IMG/VR virus record: IMGVR_UViG_3300021479_000015
Span: 1 to 64,000 of that record
DNA length: 64,000 nucleotides
From: a virus
Reading direction: 5' to 3' (one strand)
Part shown: positions 5,907 to 16,926 of the stretch, piece by piece
Numbering within the stretch: the stretch's first letter is position 1
Layout of the letters: the number at the start of each line of letters is the position of its first letter
The notes under the pieces: model-generated
The model's database searches: none
The model's input: the letters and a program-made list of their open reading frames with translations, nothing else
What the model was told of the DNA's origin: nothing
Program-made: the position numbers and the translations under genes

Positions 5907-6731
5907 CTACCTCCAGATGCTCGCTACGTCGCTCGGTGAAGAAAACAGGACGTTCCAGACGTGATCGACCACGACAGTCTTGCGCGGCGGCACCAGCTCG
6001 GGGTAGGCGCCATCCGGGTAGATCATGAAGGTATCATACCCTTGCACCCGCATGTAAGCCCGCAAGCTGTCGGGCGAGCACATCATCTGCGCGAGGCCAA
6101 ACTGGTTCACCTCCGCCACGACGAACGGCGGGTGCTGCACCGCCAGCACATTGTTGCCCCCCTGCAGCACGCGCTCCTCTGAACCTTCCACGTCGAGCTT
6201 GATCAGTCGCAAGGGGGACGGGGAGATGCGGTTGAGGGTCGTGGCTGGCATCTTATCTCGAACAGGAGATGTGCACTGCGTGTTAATATTTTCATGCCAG
6301 TGTTCAGGAGGCCACAATGCGTGGCCGCCGCTGCTATCGAAATTTTTATAAAACGTAACTTCCTCCGCCCGAGCGAACAGCGGCTGCTCCACGACAGTCA
6401 CCATCGACGCTGGAGAAACGTTAAGCTCAAGATTTTTCTTGAGCTTCGACAAATTATCTATCCCCGGCTCCACCGCCACCACTTCACCTGTTGGTCCCAC
6501 AAGCTGGGAGGCGAGTAAAGAAAAGAACCCCACACACGCGCCTGCATCCACCATCTTGTCGCCAGGACGCAGCGCCCGCATCATCACCCACGCCACCTCG
6601 GGCTCGTAGCACACCTGCTTGTTGCAGCAGTCGATGAGGTACTGGTCCGACACGAAGTCGGGATCGAGCAACATCTTGAAGCTGATCTGGCGGCCGTCGG
6701 GATGGCGGAGGGAAATTACTTGCTCGGTCAT
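5907..6731 (-). CDS. FkbM-family methyltransferase
   Basis: 274 residues with a class I SAM-dependent fold. Motif I is MVDAGACVGFFSLLAS (about residues 60-75), the acidic post-I strand is EVVAVEPG, and the FkbM signature is LIKLDVEGSEERVLQG (about 175-190). FkbM enzymes O-methylate sugars or small molecules. Its neighbours are a TPR glycosyltransferase, an NDP-sugar epimerase and further glycosyltransferases, so the likely substrate is a glycan made or modified by the phage. The stop of the next upstream gene overlaps its start as ATGA. Confidence 0.85.
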   Translation of the reverse strand: MTEQVISLRHPDGRQISFKMLLDPDFVSDQYLIDCCNKQVCYEPEVAWVMMRALRPGDKMVDAGACVGFFSLLASQLVGPTGEVVAVEPGIDNLSKLKKNLELNVSPASMVTVVEQPLFARAEEVTFYKNFDSSGGHALWPPEHWHENINTQCTSPVRDKMPATTLNRISPSPLRLIKLDVEGSEERVLQGGNNVLAVQHPPFVVAEVNQFGLAQMMCSPDSLRAYMRVQGYDTFMIYPDGAYPELVPPRKTVVVDHVWNVLFSSPSDVASIWR

Positions 6732-8582: not shown

Positions 8583-8805
8583 CACTCGCCTCAACGCGAT
8601 GATAAAAATGCTTCTCCGCTTGCTGAACGCATTCCCTGATTGCAGCCTTTATCTGCCACGCGCCGTAACCATCCACGTCCTTAAATTTTTCAGCTGCTTC
8701 TTTCCAAAAGGAAACTGAAGCCGTCAAGGTAATCGTGGCGTTGATGCTGTCTACACTATCGAGTTTGAACCTAGCAGTGAGGCCGGAAAACTGTTGGTCT
8801 TTCAC
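8575..8805 (-). CDS. Small protein of unknown function
   Basis: 76 residues with a beta-rich N-terminus (FKLDSVDSINATITLTASVS) and a helical C-terminus (AAIRECVQQAEKHFYHRV). The start overlaps the recombinase stop as ATGA and the end overlaps the glycosyltransferase start. No family is recognised. Confidence 0.6.
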   Translation of the reverse strand: MKDQQFSGLTARFKLDSVDSINATITLTASVSFWKEAAEKFKDVDGYGAWQIKAAIRECVQQAEKHFYHRVEASDG

Positions 8806-9491
8806 GCTACCTTCTCCTTCACCAACGCAAACACCTGCCCGCGATTGAACGGGCGGCCATGGCGGTTATAGACGCCGCGGGAAGTCAGCTCGCGCACGAT
8901 CTCCTCATACCCCATCCCCTGCGCCTTGAGGTCGCGCATCTTGCCGATGTTGCGCTGCTCCATAACATTCTCTACCAGGAAGGCGTTCTTGCGGTAGCCG
9001 GTCTTGCGGTAACCGTAGGGGACCGCGCCCAAGCACCCCCCTGCTTGCCGCTTGGCCTCGCGCCCCGAAGCGGTGCGCTCGTTGATGCGGTCACGCTCGA
9101 ACTCCGCCACCAAGGCCAGCATGGAGAAGAACAGCTTGCTCGCGCCATTCTCCGTCACGACCGTATGTCCCATGTCGGCCAGAACGAGGCCAACCTGACG
9201 CGCCTGGAGGTCCTTGAGCATCTGCAACGCGTCCAACGCCGACCGGAACAAGCGGTCGAGCTTGGCCGCCACAATGATATCTCCCGGCTTCGCCGTTTCC
9301 AGCATCACGGCGCCCTGCGGGCGGTTCTGCAGCGACACCGAGCCCGAGACGGCAGGGTCGGAGTAGAACACGATGTCATACTGATCAACGCCGCGCATCA
9401 TCGCCACGCCGCGGATCATGCGCTCCTGCTCCGCGATGGTGGAACCATCCGCCTGGTCGGACGTGGAGCAGCGGGTGTAACCGAACAACAT
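8802..9491 (-). CDS. Serine recombinase (resolvase/invertase type)
   Basis: About 229 residues. The catalytic N-terminal domain has the nucleophile segment GYTRCSTSDQ, the KLDRLFRS motif (IVAAKLDRLFRSALDAL) and the conserved late motif EFERDRINERTASG. The C-terminal ~70 residues form a helical recombinase region with a DNA-binding tail. The length fits small resolvases and invertases, not the ~500-residue integrases. It could invert a segment, resolve multimers or catalyse integration. ATG 9491 has a GGAAAGG ribosome-binding site; TTG 9497 is a less likely start. Confidence 0.85.
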   Translation of the reverse strand: MLFGYTRCSTSDQADGSTIAEQERMIRGVAMMRGVDQYDIVFYSDPAVSGSVSLQNRPQGAVMLETAKPGDIIVAAKLDRLFRSALDALQMLKDLQARQVGLVLADMGHTVVTENGASKLFFSMLALVAEFERDRINERTASGREAKRQAGGCLGAVPYGYRKTGYRKNAFLVENVMEQRNIGKMRDLKAQGMGYEEIVRELTSRGVYNRHGRPFNRGQVFALVKEKVA

Positions 9492-9493
9492 AG

Positions 9494-9691
9494 TCAATAG
9501 CCTTTCCCATAATCGTAAATCGCCAATAGTTCATCGTTGGATAGTGGCGGCACAAATCCACGATCGGTATCGACCATTTCTTTCTTGCGCGGATTTACAA
9601 GGCGGCGATTAGACGGAGAAGTGGAATCCGTCCAAATCTCAAAGCTTTGACCACGGAGTTCAAAATCAGGACAAAGGCAGTGCTCGCTCAT
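9494..9691 (-). CDS. Small protein at head of recombinase operon
   Basis: 65 residues, MSEHCLCPDFELRGQSFEIW onward, of unknown function. ATG 9691 lies about 8 bases after the -10 box of the promoter at 9699-9726, so its mRNA is predicted to be leaderless. It is followed with overlap by the serine recombinase. Confidence 0.55.
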   Translation of the reverse strand: MSEHCLCPDFELRGQSFEIWTDSTSPSNRRLVNPRKKEMVDTDRGFVPPLSNDELLAIYDYGKGY

Positions 9692-9745: not shown

Positions 9746-10804
9746 TCAATCTGCTCCCTGATTAGGCTCGAAATACCGATCCTTGGTTTTATCGTATCCA
9801 AAAGCCTCTCCCGTCACCGGGAGAGGCTGCGTTTTATCTTCTCGGGGTGTCGAATTTCGCATCACCTCGCTTTCAATCCAATGGTAGAGCTTCTCCAGCC
9901 CCAGAACGAGCGGAGCGGAAGGCGACCAGTCGAGCTTTTCTTGGACAAAGGTATTGTCAGACGATCTCCCCCGCACGCCCTGTGGGCCATGAATGTGGTT
10001 GATCTCGATCCGCTTCCCCGCGATATCGGCAACCATGTGGACGAGCTGGTTGATGCTGACCATCTCGGAAGAGCCGATGTTCACAGGTACGGAAACCTCG
10101 GATCGCATGAGTCGGAGGATTCCTTCAATTGCTTCGTCGATGTAGAGGAAGCTTCTTGTCTGCTTGCCGTCGCCGAAGATGTCGATGGTCCCGCCGTCAA
10201 CCGCCTGTGCCACTTTTCGGCAGATCGCTGCTGGCGCCTTCTCTCTGCCGTGTTGCCACGTACAGAGTGGACCAAACACGTTATGCAGACGACCAACACG
10301 CACGCATAAACCGTAATTGCTACGATAAGCGTCATAAAGGCGCTCAGCATAAAGTTTCTCCCATCCGTAGTTACTATCGGGGCGCGCAGGATAGGCTTGC
10401 ACTTCCTTCAGCGAAGCGCTGTCGGGTCGCGATTGCACGAAGTCCGGGTAGATGCAGGCGGAGGAAGAGAAAAATACCTTGCCTACCTTCGCGCGGCGGC
10501 AAGCTTCGAGCACGTTGAGATTTATGAGCGTAGAGTTGCGCATGATCTCGGCATCGTTCTCGCCGGTGAAGATGTAAGACGCCCCGCCCATCTCAGCAGC
10601 AAACTGGTAGACTTCATCAATCCAAGGATTGAAATCCAGTGGCGCGTATCGCAAGTCTTTGATATCGAACTTGTCCGCACTCGAAGTGCCGAACTCGGGA
10701 AGCTTTCGATCAATGCCCCAGACAAAGTAACCTTCCTTCTTAAGACGATTGACAAGGTGGTACCCAATGAAGCCGCCCGCGCCGCATACGATTGCTGTTT
10801 TCAT
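9746..10804 (-). CDS. NAD-dependent sugar epimerase, GDP-mannose 3,5-epimerase-like
   Basis: 352 residues of the extended short-chain dehydrogenase type. The NAD-binding GAGGFIGYHL is at about residues 8-17, the catalytic Ser region is VFFSSSACIYPDF, and the Tyr-x-x-x-Lys is NYGWEKLYAERL. The Ser-Ser-Ala-Cys-Ile-Tyr-Pro stretch and DYxxxK context recall plant and bacterial GDP-mannose 3,5-epimerases, which make GDP-L-galactose or GDP-L-gulose. The exact substrate is inferred. It sits with two putative glycosyltransferases, giving a donor-plus-transfer set. The last ~25 codons contain a strong hairpin (9803-9828). Confidence 0.85.
   Translation of the reverse strand: MKTAIVCGAGGFIGYHLVNRLKKEGYFVWGIDRKLPEFGTSSADKFDIKDLRYAPLDFNPWIDEVYQFAAEMGGASYIFTGENDAEIMRNSTLINLNVLEACRRAKVGKVFFSSSACIYPDFVQSRPDSASLKEVQAYPARPDSNYGWEKLYAERLYDAYRSNYGLCVRVGRLHNVFGPLCTWQHGREKAPAAICRKVAQAVDGGTIDIFGDGKQTRSFLYIDEAIEGILRLMRSEVSVPVNIGSSEMVSINQLVHMVADIAGKRIEINHIHGPQGVRGRSSDNTFVQEKLDWSPSAPLVLGLEKLYHWIESEVMRNSTPREDKTQPLPVTGEAFGYDKTKDRYFEPNQGAD
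9803..9828 (-). terminator. Intragenic terminator-like hairpin in epimerase 3' end
   Basis: AGCCTCTCCCG and CGGGAGAGGCT form an 11-bp stem with a 4-base loop, followed on the minus strand by TTTT. It is translated as PLPVTGEA inside the epimerase. It may end some transcripts early or be a mobile palindrome. Confidence 0.55.
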
Positions 10805-15316: not shown

Positions 15317-15402
15317 TCTTCGTCATCCACTTGCCAGCAGAGAAACGCGAAGTACGCGAGCTGCAGGGCGCCGATGGCGAGGAGGAGATGGAGGAGGGTC
15401 AT
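15313..15402 (-). CDS. Tiny membrane protein (29 residues)
   Basis: MTLLHLLLAIGALQLAYFAF then LCWQVDDEE. One membrane helix with an acidic tail. ATG 15402 overlaps the Dcm stop as ATGA, and its stop overlaps the next ATG. Unknown role. Confidence 0.5.
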   Translation of the reverse strand: MTLLHLLLAIGALQLAYFAFLCWQVDDEE

Positions 15403-16214
15403 TTCAACGCTGACTTGATGAACTGCGCCGCGCATTGCGGGACGATGGCGTTACCGAAGGCGCCGACTTGAGCCACGCGATGGGATAACCCATGAACACC
15501 GCCGCCCAGGACGGGTTGATCAGTCCAGTCGTCCCTGGAAACGCAGCGCGCAACGTCGTGCTCAAATCCGTTCCTCGTTGCGACTCCTGACGCATTCGCG
15601 CCGTTCGTTCCGGCTTTGCGCCTCCACGATAATCGTGCTTGGTCAAAGTGGAAAGCAACCTTCGATGCCGCTTCCACTTCTGCATGCTCGGCATGAACAA
15701 ATTCATCTTGGCGGTGAGTGTCGGAAGCAACCCACCACCAGCGTTGCCGTTCGTGCTCAGCTCCGACACTGCAAGCAGGCAATACCGCCGCCGCAAAGGC
15801 GTAATCGATTCCTTCCACGTCAGTACACACGAGGTCGAGCCAAACTTTAGCGCGCGCAACCTGCTCTCCAAGGACGATTGCAGGGCGGCAGACGCTGATG
15901 AGGTGGAAATAGTGGGGCCACAGGTGCCGCTCGTCAGCAAACCCGCGGCGCTTGCCCGCCGCGCTGAAAGGCTGGCAAGGACACGATCCCGTCCATAACG
16001 GGAGATCATCAGGGATACTTGCAAGGCGTAAGGCGCGTGACCAACCGCCGATGCCAGCGAAGAAGTGGCATTGGGTGTAGGCGAGAAGCTCGTTAGGGGC
16101 GATGTCGCGGATGTCACGTTCGTCCACGTCTCCGGGAGCGATAAGCTTAGCAACGATGAGGTTGCGCAGCCACTGCGCGCAGTAGGGGTCGATCTCGTTG
16201 TAATAGGCGGGCAT
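15399..16214 (-). CDS. dcm: DNA (cytosine-5) methyltransferase, Dcm type
   Basis: 271 residues from ATG 16214. All core motifs are visible: motif I FFAGIGGWSRAL, motif IV with the catalytic Cys in GSCPCQPFSAAGKRRGF, motif VI VLGEQVA, motif VIII ERQRWWWVAS and motif X GAFGNAIVPQCAAQF. The target-recognition region is short. The enzyme methylates cytosine in DNA and probably protects phage DNA against host restriction. A longer in-frame start (16301) exists, but the promoter at 16222-16250 sets 16214 as the likely, leaderless start. A second long ORF overlaps it in another frame. Confidence 0.85.
   Translation of the reverse strand: MPAYYNEIDPYCAQWLRNLIVAKLIAPGDVDERDIRDIAPNELLAYTQCHFFAGIGGWSRALRLASIPDDLPLWTGSCPCQPFSAAGKRRGFADERHLWPHYFHLISVCRPAIVLGEQVARAKVWLDLVCTDVEGIDYAFAAAVLPACSVGAEHERQRWWWVASDTHRQDEFVHAEHAEVEAASKVAFHFDQARLSWRRKAGTNGANASGVATRNGFEHDVARCVSRDDWTDQPVLGGGVHGLSHRVAQVGAFGNAIVPQCAAQFIKSALK
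15404..16153 (-). CDS. Second long ORF overlapping the Dcm gene
   Basis: 249 codons in a different frame on the same strand as dcm, without stops. It is Ser/Thr/Arg/Leu-rich but shows segments that recur in phage proteins next to Dcm genes (from memory): TSGTCGPTISTSS, LTWKESITPLRRR, LLPTLTAK, and INPSWAAVFMGYPIAWLKS near the end. The last segment is like the C-terminal part of some phage methyltransferases. Whether both frames are translated, or this is an old frameshift copy of the target domain, is open. Confidence 0.4.
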   Translation of the reverse strand: MLSLSLPETWTNVTSATSPLTSFSPTPNATSSLASAVGHAPYALQVSLMISRYGRDRVLASLSARRASAAGLLTSGTCGPTISTSSASAALQSSLESRLRALKFGSTSCVLTWKESITPLRRRYCLLAVSELSTNGNAGGGLLPTLTAKMNLFMPSMQKWKRHRRLLSTLTKHDYRGGAKPERTARMRQESQRGTDLSTTLRAAFPGTTGLINPSWAAVFMGYPIAWLKSAPSVTPSSRNARRSSSSQR

Positions 16215-16221
16215 TTGAAAG

Positions 16222-16250
16222 AGCGTAGTGCCAGTGACTACGTTTTTCAA
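16222..16250 (-). promoter_or_regulatory. Leftward promoter with 17-bp operator (copy 3)
   Basis: TTGAAA (16250-16245), 17 bases, then TACGCT (16227-16222). The operator GTAGTCACTGGCACTAC is at 16241-16225. ATG 16214 follows the -10 box by 8 bases and the operator by 10, exactly as at copy 1, so the dcm transcript should be leaderless. Confidence 0.65.
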
Positions 16251-16596
16251 GCTTTTTATTTTTCCTGGGGGAGCGTGGGGGTTGGCGTACTCAAAAAACA
16301 ACCGGAGCGCGTCCCGGTCGGTTGATTAAACCGGCCGAAATAGCCTGAAAACACTTAGGTTCGATCGAGTGCCTGGTAGGTCACATATGGGCTCGAGCGG
16401 TTCACGTAAAGTTGATATTAGTTGATACTACGTGATACGCGACGCTGAATTGCAAAGCAAATCAAGGCGATAAGTAGTTTCGAACTTGTAAGTGTCGAAC
16501 GTCGTGATGGGCGTTGGGCGCCTGGCGGGAGGTGTTGGGTGCTCGACGTCGAGCGCGAGCGGCTAAAATTCGCGCGTTCAACGCGACGGAGAAAAC
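16251..16596. promoter_or_regulatory. Divergent control region
   Basis: About 345 bases without a supported gene between the leftward dcm operon and the rightward gene at 16597. It includes the three 10-bp repeats at 16411-16440 and a degenerate operator-like GAGTGCC sequence near 16360. A likely rightward promoter is not clear; the stretch before 16597 is CG-rich with TTCAACG and CGGAGAA just upstream of the start. Confidence 0.5.
16411..16440. repeat. Three 10-bp direct repeats
   Basis: GTTGATATTA, GTTGATACTA and CGTGATACGC follow each other without gap. The core (T)TGATA recurs at exactly 10 bases. Such tandem sites are typical of head-to-tail binding by OmpR/PhoB-type proteins or repressors, and two such domains are encoded in this window. 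Confidence 0.6.
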
Positions 16597-16926
16597 GTGC
16601 AACCAAAATATGCGCCAGATGCTCGCCGGCACATTGTAACGGATGCGTTTGAAATGCTCGGGCTAACAAATAGCGCCGCGCGCAAGCGCCTGGACAATCG
16701 CGCGAGCCCGACAGCTGTTAGCCTCTGGCGATCGGGCAAACGCGCAATACCGCAATGGGCGGCCGAGCTATTGGCGAACGATATGTGCTGGAAAGCCAAT
16801 CGGCTCTACGAAAGCGCTAAAATGCTCAAAAGCATTGCCACCAATGGCAAACGCGGCGGATCCCACCGCGCCCTAATGGCTTGGCAAGCTCGCAGGCTCG
16901 CCCAAAAAGAAAAGGCAGCCGACTAA
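16597..16926 (+). CDS. HTH-like regulator candidate
   Basis: 109 residues and the first rightward gene. A helix-turn-helix-like part (DAFEMLGLTNSAARKRLDNR then PTAVSLWRSGKRAIPQWAAE) is followed by a very basic helical C-terminus (RLAQKEKAAD). It stands alone, facing a leftward block. It could be the regulator of the control region beside it. Confidence 0.6.
   Translation: MQPKYAPDARRHIVTDAFEMLGLTNSAARKRLDNRASPTAVSLWRSGKRAIPQWAAELLANDMCWKANRLYESAKMLKSIATNGKRGGSHRALMAWQARRLAQKEKAAD

Follow-up and report, generated by a model that had tools for sequence, protein, structure and literature searches.

One stretch of phage DNA probably encodes both subunits of a split C5-cytosine methyltransferase in overlapping frames

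Introduction

Does a second stop-free frame, lying over nearly the whole of a phage methyltransferase gene, encode a protein of its own, and what would such a protein do? The question is raised by a locus in the IMG/VR virus record IMGVR_UViG_3300021479_000015 (68,222 bases), of which positions 1 to 64,000 were analyzed here (64,000 nucleotides, hereafter the window). A preliminary description, made from the letters of the window only, had pointed out two long frames at this locus, and both were found on the minus strand with a long overlap. Frame A (15399-16301 as listed, or 15399..16214 from the ATG at 16214) is a Dcm-like C5-cytosine methyltransferase and the candidate catalytic subunit. 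Frame B lies in the +1 phase relative to A and comprises 249 codons (15404-16153) when counted from the TTG at 16153, as in that description. The GTG at 16117 is proposed here as its start, giving 15404..16117 on the same strand, with the start codon being uncertain; the match to phrog_1008 and the selection seen across the family point to B as an overprinted second subunit. To our knowledge, strongly supported cases of long, old genes overlapping on the same strand are uncommon in double-stranded DNA phages. The analysis makes it quite likely that this one stretch of DNA encodes both subunits of a split C5-cytosine methyltransferase, the second one being overprinted, and that this enzyme would work like M.EcoHK31I.

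Results

In the window sequence alone, the open B frame was only weakly significant (P about 0.01-0.03), no more than suggestive. The stop-free stretch of B extended over 277 codons, exceeding the 249-codon frame. B remained open in 2.6% of the trials in which the A protein was fixed and its synonymous codons were shuffled, or in 1.3% when the window-wide codon usage was applied. As the single sequence is only weakly improbable, the case for B rests on comparison, which is decisive.

Relatives were gathered from IMG/VR with either frame as the query, together with annotated phages. The loci were the best-scoring ones of each scan and not a random sample, and the fractions given here are not estimates for all phages. 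Of 176 loci, 172 had both frames recognizable and overlapping in the same +1 phase. Another 80 loci were retrieved through the B proteins of a second group, and in 79 of them B overlapped a methyltransferase in +1. In the four exceptions among the 176 (L080, L114, L120 and L161), A and B were exchanged part-way by an indel, which may reflect sequencing error, a pseudogene or a real variant. The B proteins of further phage groups, which include enzymes in the canonical motif order, were homologous to those of the first group (hhalign 99.8%, E 3e-29).

The depletion of stop codons in frame B was pronounced. In the stretch bounded by the QCHFF and GNA motifs, the 69 loci fetched with frame A had six B-frame stops, whereas synonymous shuffles predicted 203, and two phage groups showed 5 observed versus 182 expected and 53 versus 314. 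The +1 stops of ordinary bacterial C5 methyltransferases were not depleted (782 observed, 745 expected). When the A residues in the family alignment were numbered from the first Tyr of YYNE, B-frame stops were common before residue 35 and rare from residue 36 to about 247.

The test of synonymous-site constraint proposed in the preliminary description was run on the relatives and showed that synonymous third positions in A become frozen within the overlap. The four-fold degenerate sites of A shifted from about 1.5-1.9 bits at residues 1-78 (near neutral) to mostly 0.1-1.4 bits at residues 79-249 (largely frozen), as exemplified by the codon of V116, ending in T in 140/141. For the codon-position rates, changes at third positions in the A reading were divided by those at first positions. 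In 30 independent pairs this ratio was 5.0 before B, fell to 1.55 in the catalytic overlap and 0.71 in the middle region, and was 2.8 after B; as ranges, the comparison gave 0.5-0.7 for the middle region and 2.5-2.8 after the overlap. The ratio of nonsynonymous to synonymous changes (pN/pS) was 0.12 for A and 2.96 for B before the overlap. In the middle region A reached 1.25 and B had 0.59; the C-terminal overlap gave 0.63 for A and 0.51 for B, and the part beyond the overlap 0.30 for A and 2.09 for B. Because of the pN/pS values and codon-position rates in the middle region, the place of the target-recognition domain in C5 methyltransferases, the comparison indicates that B is the constrained frame there and A is merely kept open. 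The target-recognition region, corresponding to A residues 181-252 (15459..15674, minus strand), is disordered in the model of A, and B appears as the selected frame across the family in most of it.

These results bear on several earlier claims. The suggestion of a true overprinted gene held up, as B is open in homologues and under purifying selection. Dual coding, regarded there as unusual, turned out to be the rule within the family and no peculiarity of this phage. The idea that B might hold the remains of a target-recognition domain was right in that B covers the target-recognition region together with a motif-IX-like segment, but "remains" was a wrong term for what is the selected frame there. 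The preliminary description had also named two outcomes that would speak against B. Stops did not appear freely in homologues, B being rarely interrupted, and the codon bias of A did not explain B, as the openness and the third-base freezing exceeded what the A protein and its codon usage produce.

Asp-34 of A is encoded by GAT in 85% of cases, and as a result the B codon lying over it was ATG in 110 of 145 relatives. In most relatives, a GGAG-like site is located about 8 nt upstream of this ATG, partly built from the rare arginine codons AGG and CGG.

Frame A matched PF00145 (E=2e-16, 60.7 bits against the gathering cut-off of 22) and phrog_363 (E=2e-74). Sequence and alignment placed motif IV (PCQP, with the catalytic cysteine) at 15969..15980, motif VI (GEQV) at 15858..15869 and motif VIII (RQR) at 15741..15749, and motif X (GNAIVPQ), found in the sequence at 15435..15455, was modelled as a confident helix near the C-terminus; all are on the minus strand. 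The PCQ of motif IV and motifs VI, VIII and X were conserved in the alignment. Of the motifs listed earlier for the Dcm frame (I, IV, VI, VIII and X), IV, VI, VIII and X were indeed present, together with a motif I-like FAGIGG at an unusual place. In the part of frame A at 15969-16202, it comes after a YYNEIDP...GDVDER segment resembling motifs II-III, and the catalytic subunit thus looks locally permuted. In the model of A, residues 1-178 were confident and residues 181-252 disordered, with a predicted local distance difference test score (pLDDT) under 50, followed by the confident motif X helix. In the PDB, this model was closest to structures of M.HhaI (Z about 13.9, with 164 residues aligned), to which the model aligns from its residue 34 on. 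No motif-IX-like match was detected in frame A of nearly all relatives by a three-frame pattern search. The motif search and the model indicate that frame A by itself falls short of a complete single-chain enzyme, as it would lack an in-frame motif IX and the small domain.

The motif-IX-like pattern was sought by a regular expression in all three frames of several sets, and a few false matches were visible. It was present in the +1 frame only in 142/158, 66/76 and 50/73 loci of three phage sets, and in frame A in 68 of the 80 loci of a bacterial set. Among the phage loci with the motif in +1, 94-99% had a +1 frame that was open throughout the region; with the motif in A, the figure was 3-8% (two general sets). 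Frame B ends in the conserved LNPxxxxWLMGxPxxW, a pattern similar to motif IX of C5 enzymes, seen in the +1 frame of about 258 loci and represented in the window by INPSWAAVFMGYPIAW (15473..15520, minus strand). The pattern, the position and the complementarity between the frames allow this segment to be called motif-IX-like. In two loci, L202 (2498-3007 and its +1 frame) and L266 (2480-3019 and its +1 frame), motif VIII is the last motif of A, and the +1 frame, that is B, runs from the recognition region through motif IX to motif X within a single chain, which is the canonical order. The locus L185 (1270-2241, Streptomyces plasmid) has Pro-Thr-Pro repeats in +1 and the motif-IX-like LSPLFVEWMMGLP in frame A, possibly an intermediate arrangement.

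Frame B matched phrog_1008, labelled 'DNA methyltransferase', with E=3e-15 over residues 24-207. The signature LTWKESITPLRRR (15785..15823, minus strand), carrying the conserved LTWKxxxTP, is part of a predicted beta hairpin, with predicted strands at B residues 97-105 and 111-119 (pLDDT about 90). Both segments quoted in the preliminary description were located in B, and the segments it likened to phage proteins proved to be real signatures of the phrog_1008 family (LTWKxxxTP and LNPxxxxWLMGxPxxW). A repeated Pro-Thr-Leu-Thr, also mentioned there, amounted to one PTLT and one STLT, with clearer repeats (WPTP/LPTP) being present in relatives. No Pfam model matched frame B, the B profile found nothing among PDB sequences, and tblastn of the window B against phages gave nothing at E 1e-5 and weak matches only at E 10. 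The B protein of the relative L001 retrieved 202 phage records, and B-type frames were also found on plasmid records of Lacticaseibacillus, Halotia and Nostoc and in Paenibacillus phage Harrison. The sequence comparisons show that frame B is a real conserved protein family under purifying selection.

As for the surroundings, positions 1523-28806 carry tailed-phage genes including terminase, primase, polymerase and helicase, as well as a serine resolvase (8802-9497), a nucleotide-sugar epimerase (9746-10804) and an FkbM methyltransferase (5907-6731). A divergent open reading frame of 109 amino acids at 16597-16926 on the plus strand resembles a DNA-binding regulator by eye, with no match in PHROG or Pfam. 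No restriction enzyme was recognized among the window genes scanned, the scan covering part of them.

Discussion

In the proposed arrangement, frame A would supply the large catalytic domain, with the cofactor fold and motifs IV, VI, VIII and X, and frame B, separately translated in +1, would make up for the small domain lacking in A by supplying the target-recognition region together with the motif-IX-like segment. The two products would most likely assemble into one enzyme methylating the phage DNA, and this methylation is probably directed against host restriction. The data show a conserved and selected B protein, a complementary placement of the motif-IX-like segment between the frames, a model of A with no small domain, and an internal B start site in most relatives; the assembly, activity, target specificity and anti-restriction role of the pair are inferred.

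Several observations weigh against this assignment. B was weakly constrained in the catalytic overlap (pN/pS 0.96, with 0.34 for A). The window copy has neither the usual B ATG nor its Shine-Dalgarno site, the best candidate being the GTG at 16117 with GGAG 12 nt upstream. The motif-IX-like segment of B gave no significant result in profile comparison with canonical motif IX on its own (hhalign probability 0.6%), and it does not have the R-E of the canonical motif. The model of B was poor overall (pLDDT 60), and because of this a fold search with it gave no useful match. An overprinted B protein that is real without serving as a methyltransferase subunit, such as an unrelated phage protein that happens to share the gene, would fit the lack of a Pfam family and of a fold match for B, and also the C-terminal segment, whose resemblance to canonical motif IX falls short of statistical significance by itself. 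We regard this as improbable, although it deserves some weight, because B is present where A lacks an in-frame motif IX and absent where A has one, the model of A comes without a small domain, the loci L202 and L266 join B directly to motif X, and B accompanied a C5 methyltransferase in all profile-checked loci.

The notion that B is no protein at all, its open frame and conservation being a shadow of the sequence, composition and codon bias of A, agrees with the window taken alone (P(no stop) 0.013-0.026) and with the first 40 or so residues of B, which look largely like such a shadow (four-fold entropy near neutral; pN/pS 1.93). It is hardly credible in view of the stop depletion against synonymous shuffles, the frozen four-fold sites, the inverted codon-position rates, the B pN/pS below 1 exactly where A is unconstrained, and the embedded start site of B. 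A simple chance frame was ruled out by the stop depletion and the codon-position tests. The four loci with A and B exchanged by an indel would be in line with a single polypeptide produced through programmed frameshifting or split by sequencing errors. This is very unlikely, however, as the same +1 overlap spans hundreds of codons in 172/176 and 79/80 loci, frame A is intact to motif X across the overlap, and most relatives have their own Shine-Dalgarno site and ATG for B. Expression of B by frameshifting only is likewise unlikely because of the embedded start site.

Beyond this locus, we lean towards the view that there is a large, old and mostly unrecognized class of phage C5 methyltransferases split between overlapping frames, with target recognition in the overprinted frame, so that specificity would evolve in B and A would simply stay open underneath it. 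The same build is shared by hundreds of related phage genes, of which usually only one of the two proteins is annotated. As many records annotate only one product, anyone who clones or assays "the" methyltransferase by itself may end up with an enzyme that is inactive or misassigned. There is a plausible functional reason for the overlap, namely two parts of one enzyme; it is statistically testable on hundreds of sequences, and the selected frame is visible region by region. The pair thereby offers a direct way to study target specificity evolving in an overprinted frame.

The proteins themselves are already known, since PHROGs includes the two families and GenBank records of phage K1G and its relatives annotate both frames. 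The same +1 overlapping pair occurs in Escherichia phages K1G, K1H and K1ind1, with both members annotated ('C-specific methylase' and 'Mte8-like protein'); their GenBank records state no relation between the two products, and many other records name one frame only. No description of the overprinted pair and its wide distribution was found in the open-access literature searched, and one may exist elsewhere.

Compared with known enzymes, frame A shares its catalytic fold and motifs with single-chain C5 enzymes such as E. coli Dcm and M.HhaI. Unlike frame A, enzymes of that type have motif IX and the recognition domain in the same chain, and their +1 stops are at the chance level. The two genes of M.EcoHK31I overlap in different frames. 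M.AquI (CYCGRG) is a naturally split C5 methyltransferase (PMC3404938). The division in L202 and L266 is like that of M.AquI, with the motifs to VIII in one chain and the recognition region, IX and X in the other, whereas the window and most relatives keep motif X in the large subunit, and their frames overlap over nearly the whole second gene. M.EcoHK31I (YGGCCR), reported by Lee, Kam and Shaw (1995, NAR 23:103), is a two-polypeptide C5 methyltransferase whose large polypeptide has motifs I-VIII and X and whose smaller one has only motif IX (as described in PMC3404938). The present pair is likened to it by the arrangement: its large subunit carries the motifs up to VIII and also motif X, and its second polypeptide has a segment that is motif-IX-like by position and pattern, not by a significant profile score. 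In contrast to M.EcoHK31I, in which the recognition domain is assigned to the large polypeptide, the phage pair is selected on frame B in that region, and the present pair sits in phages.
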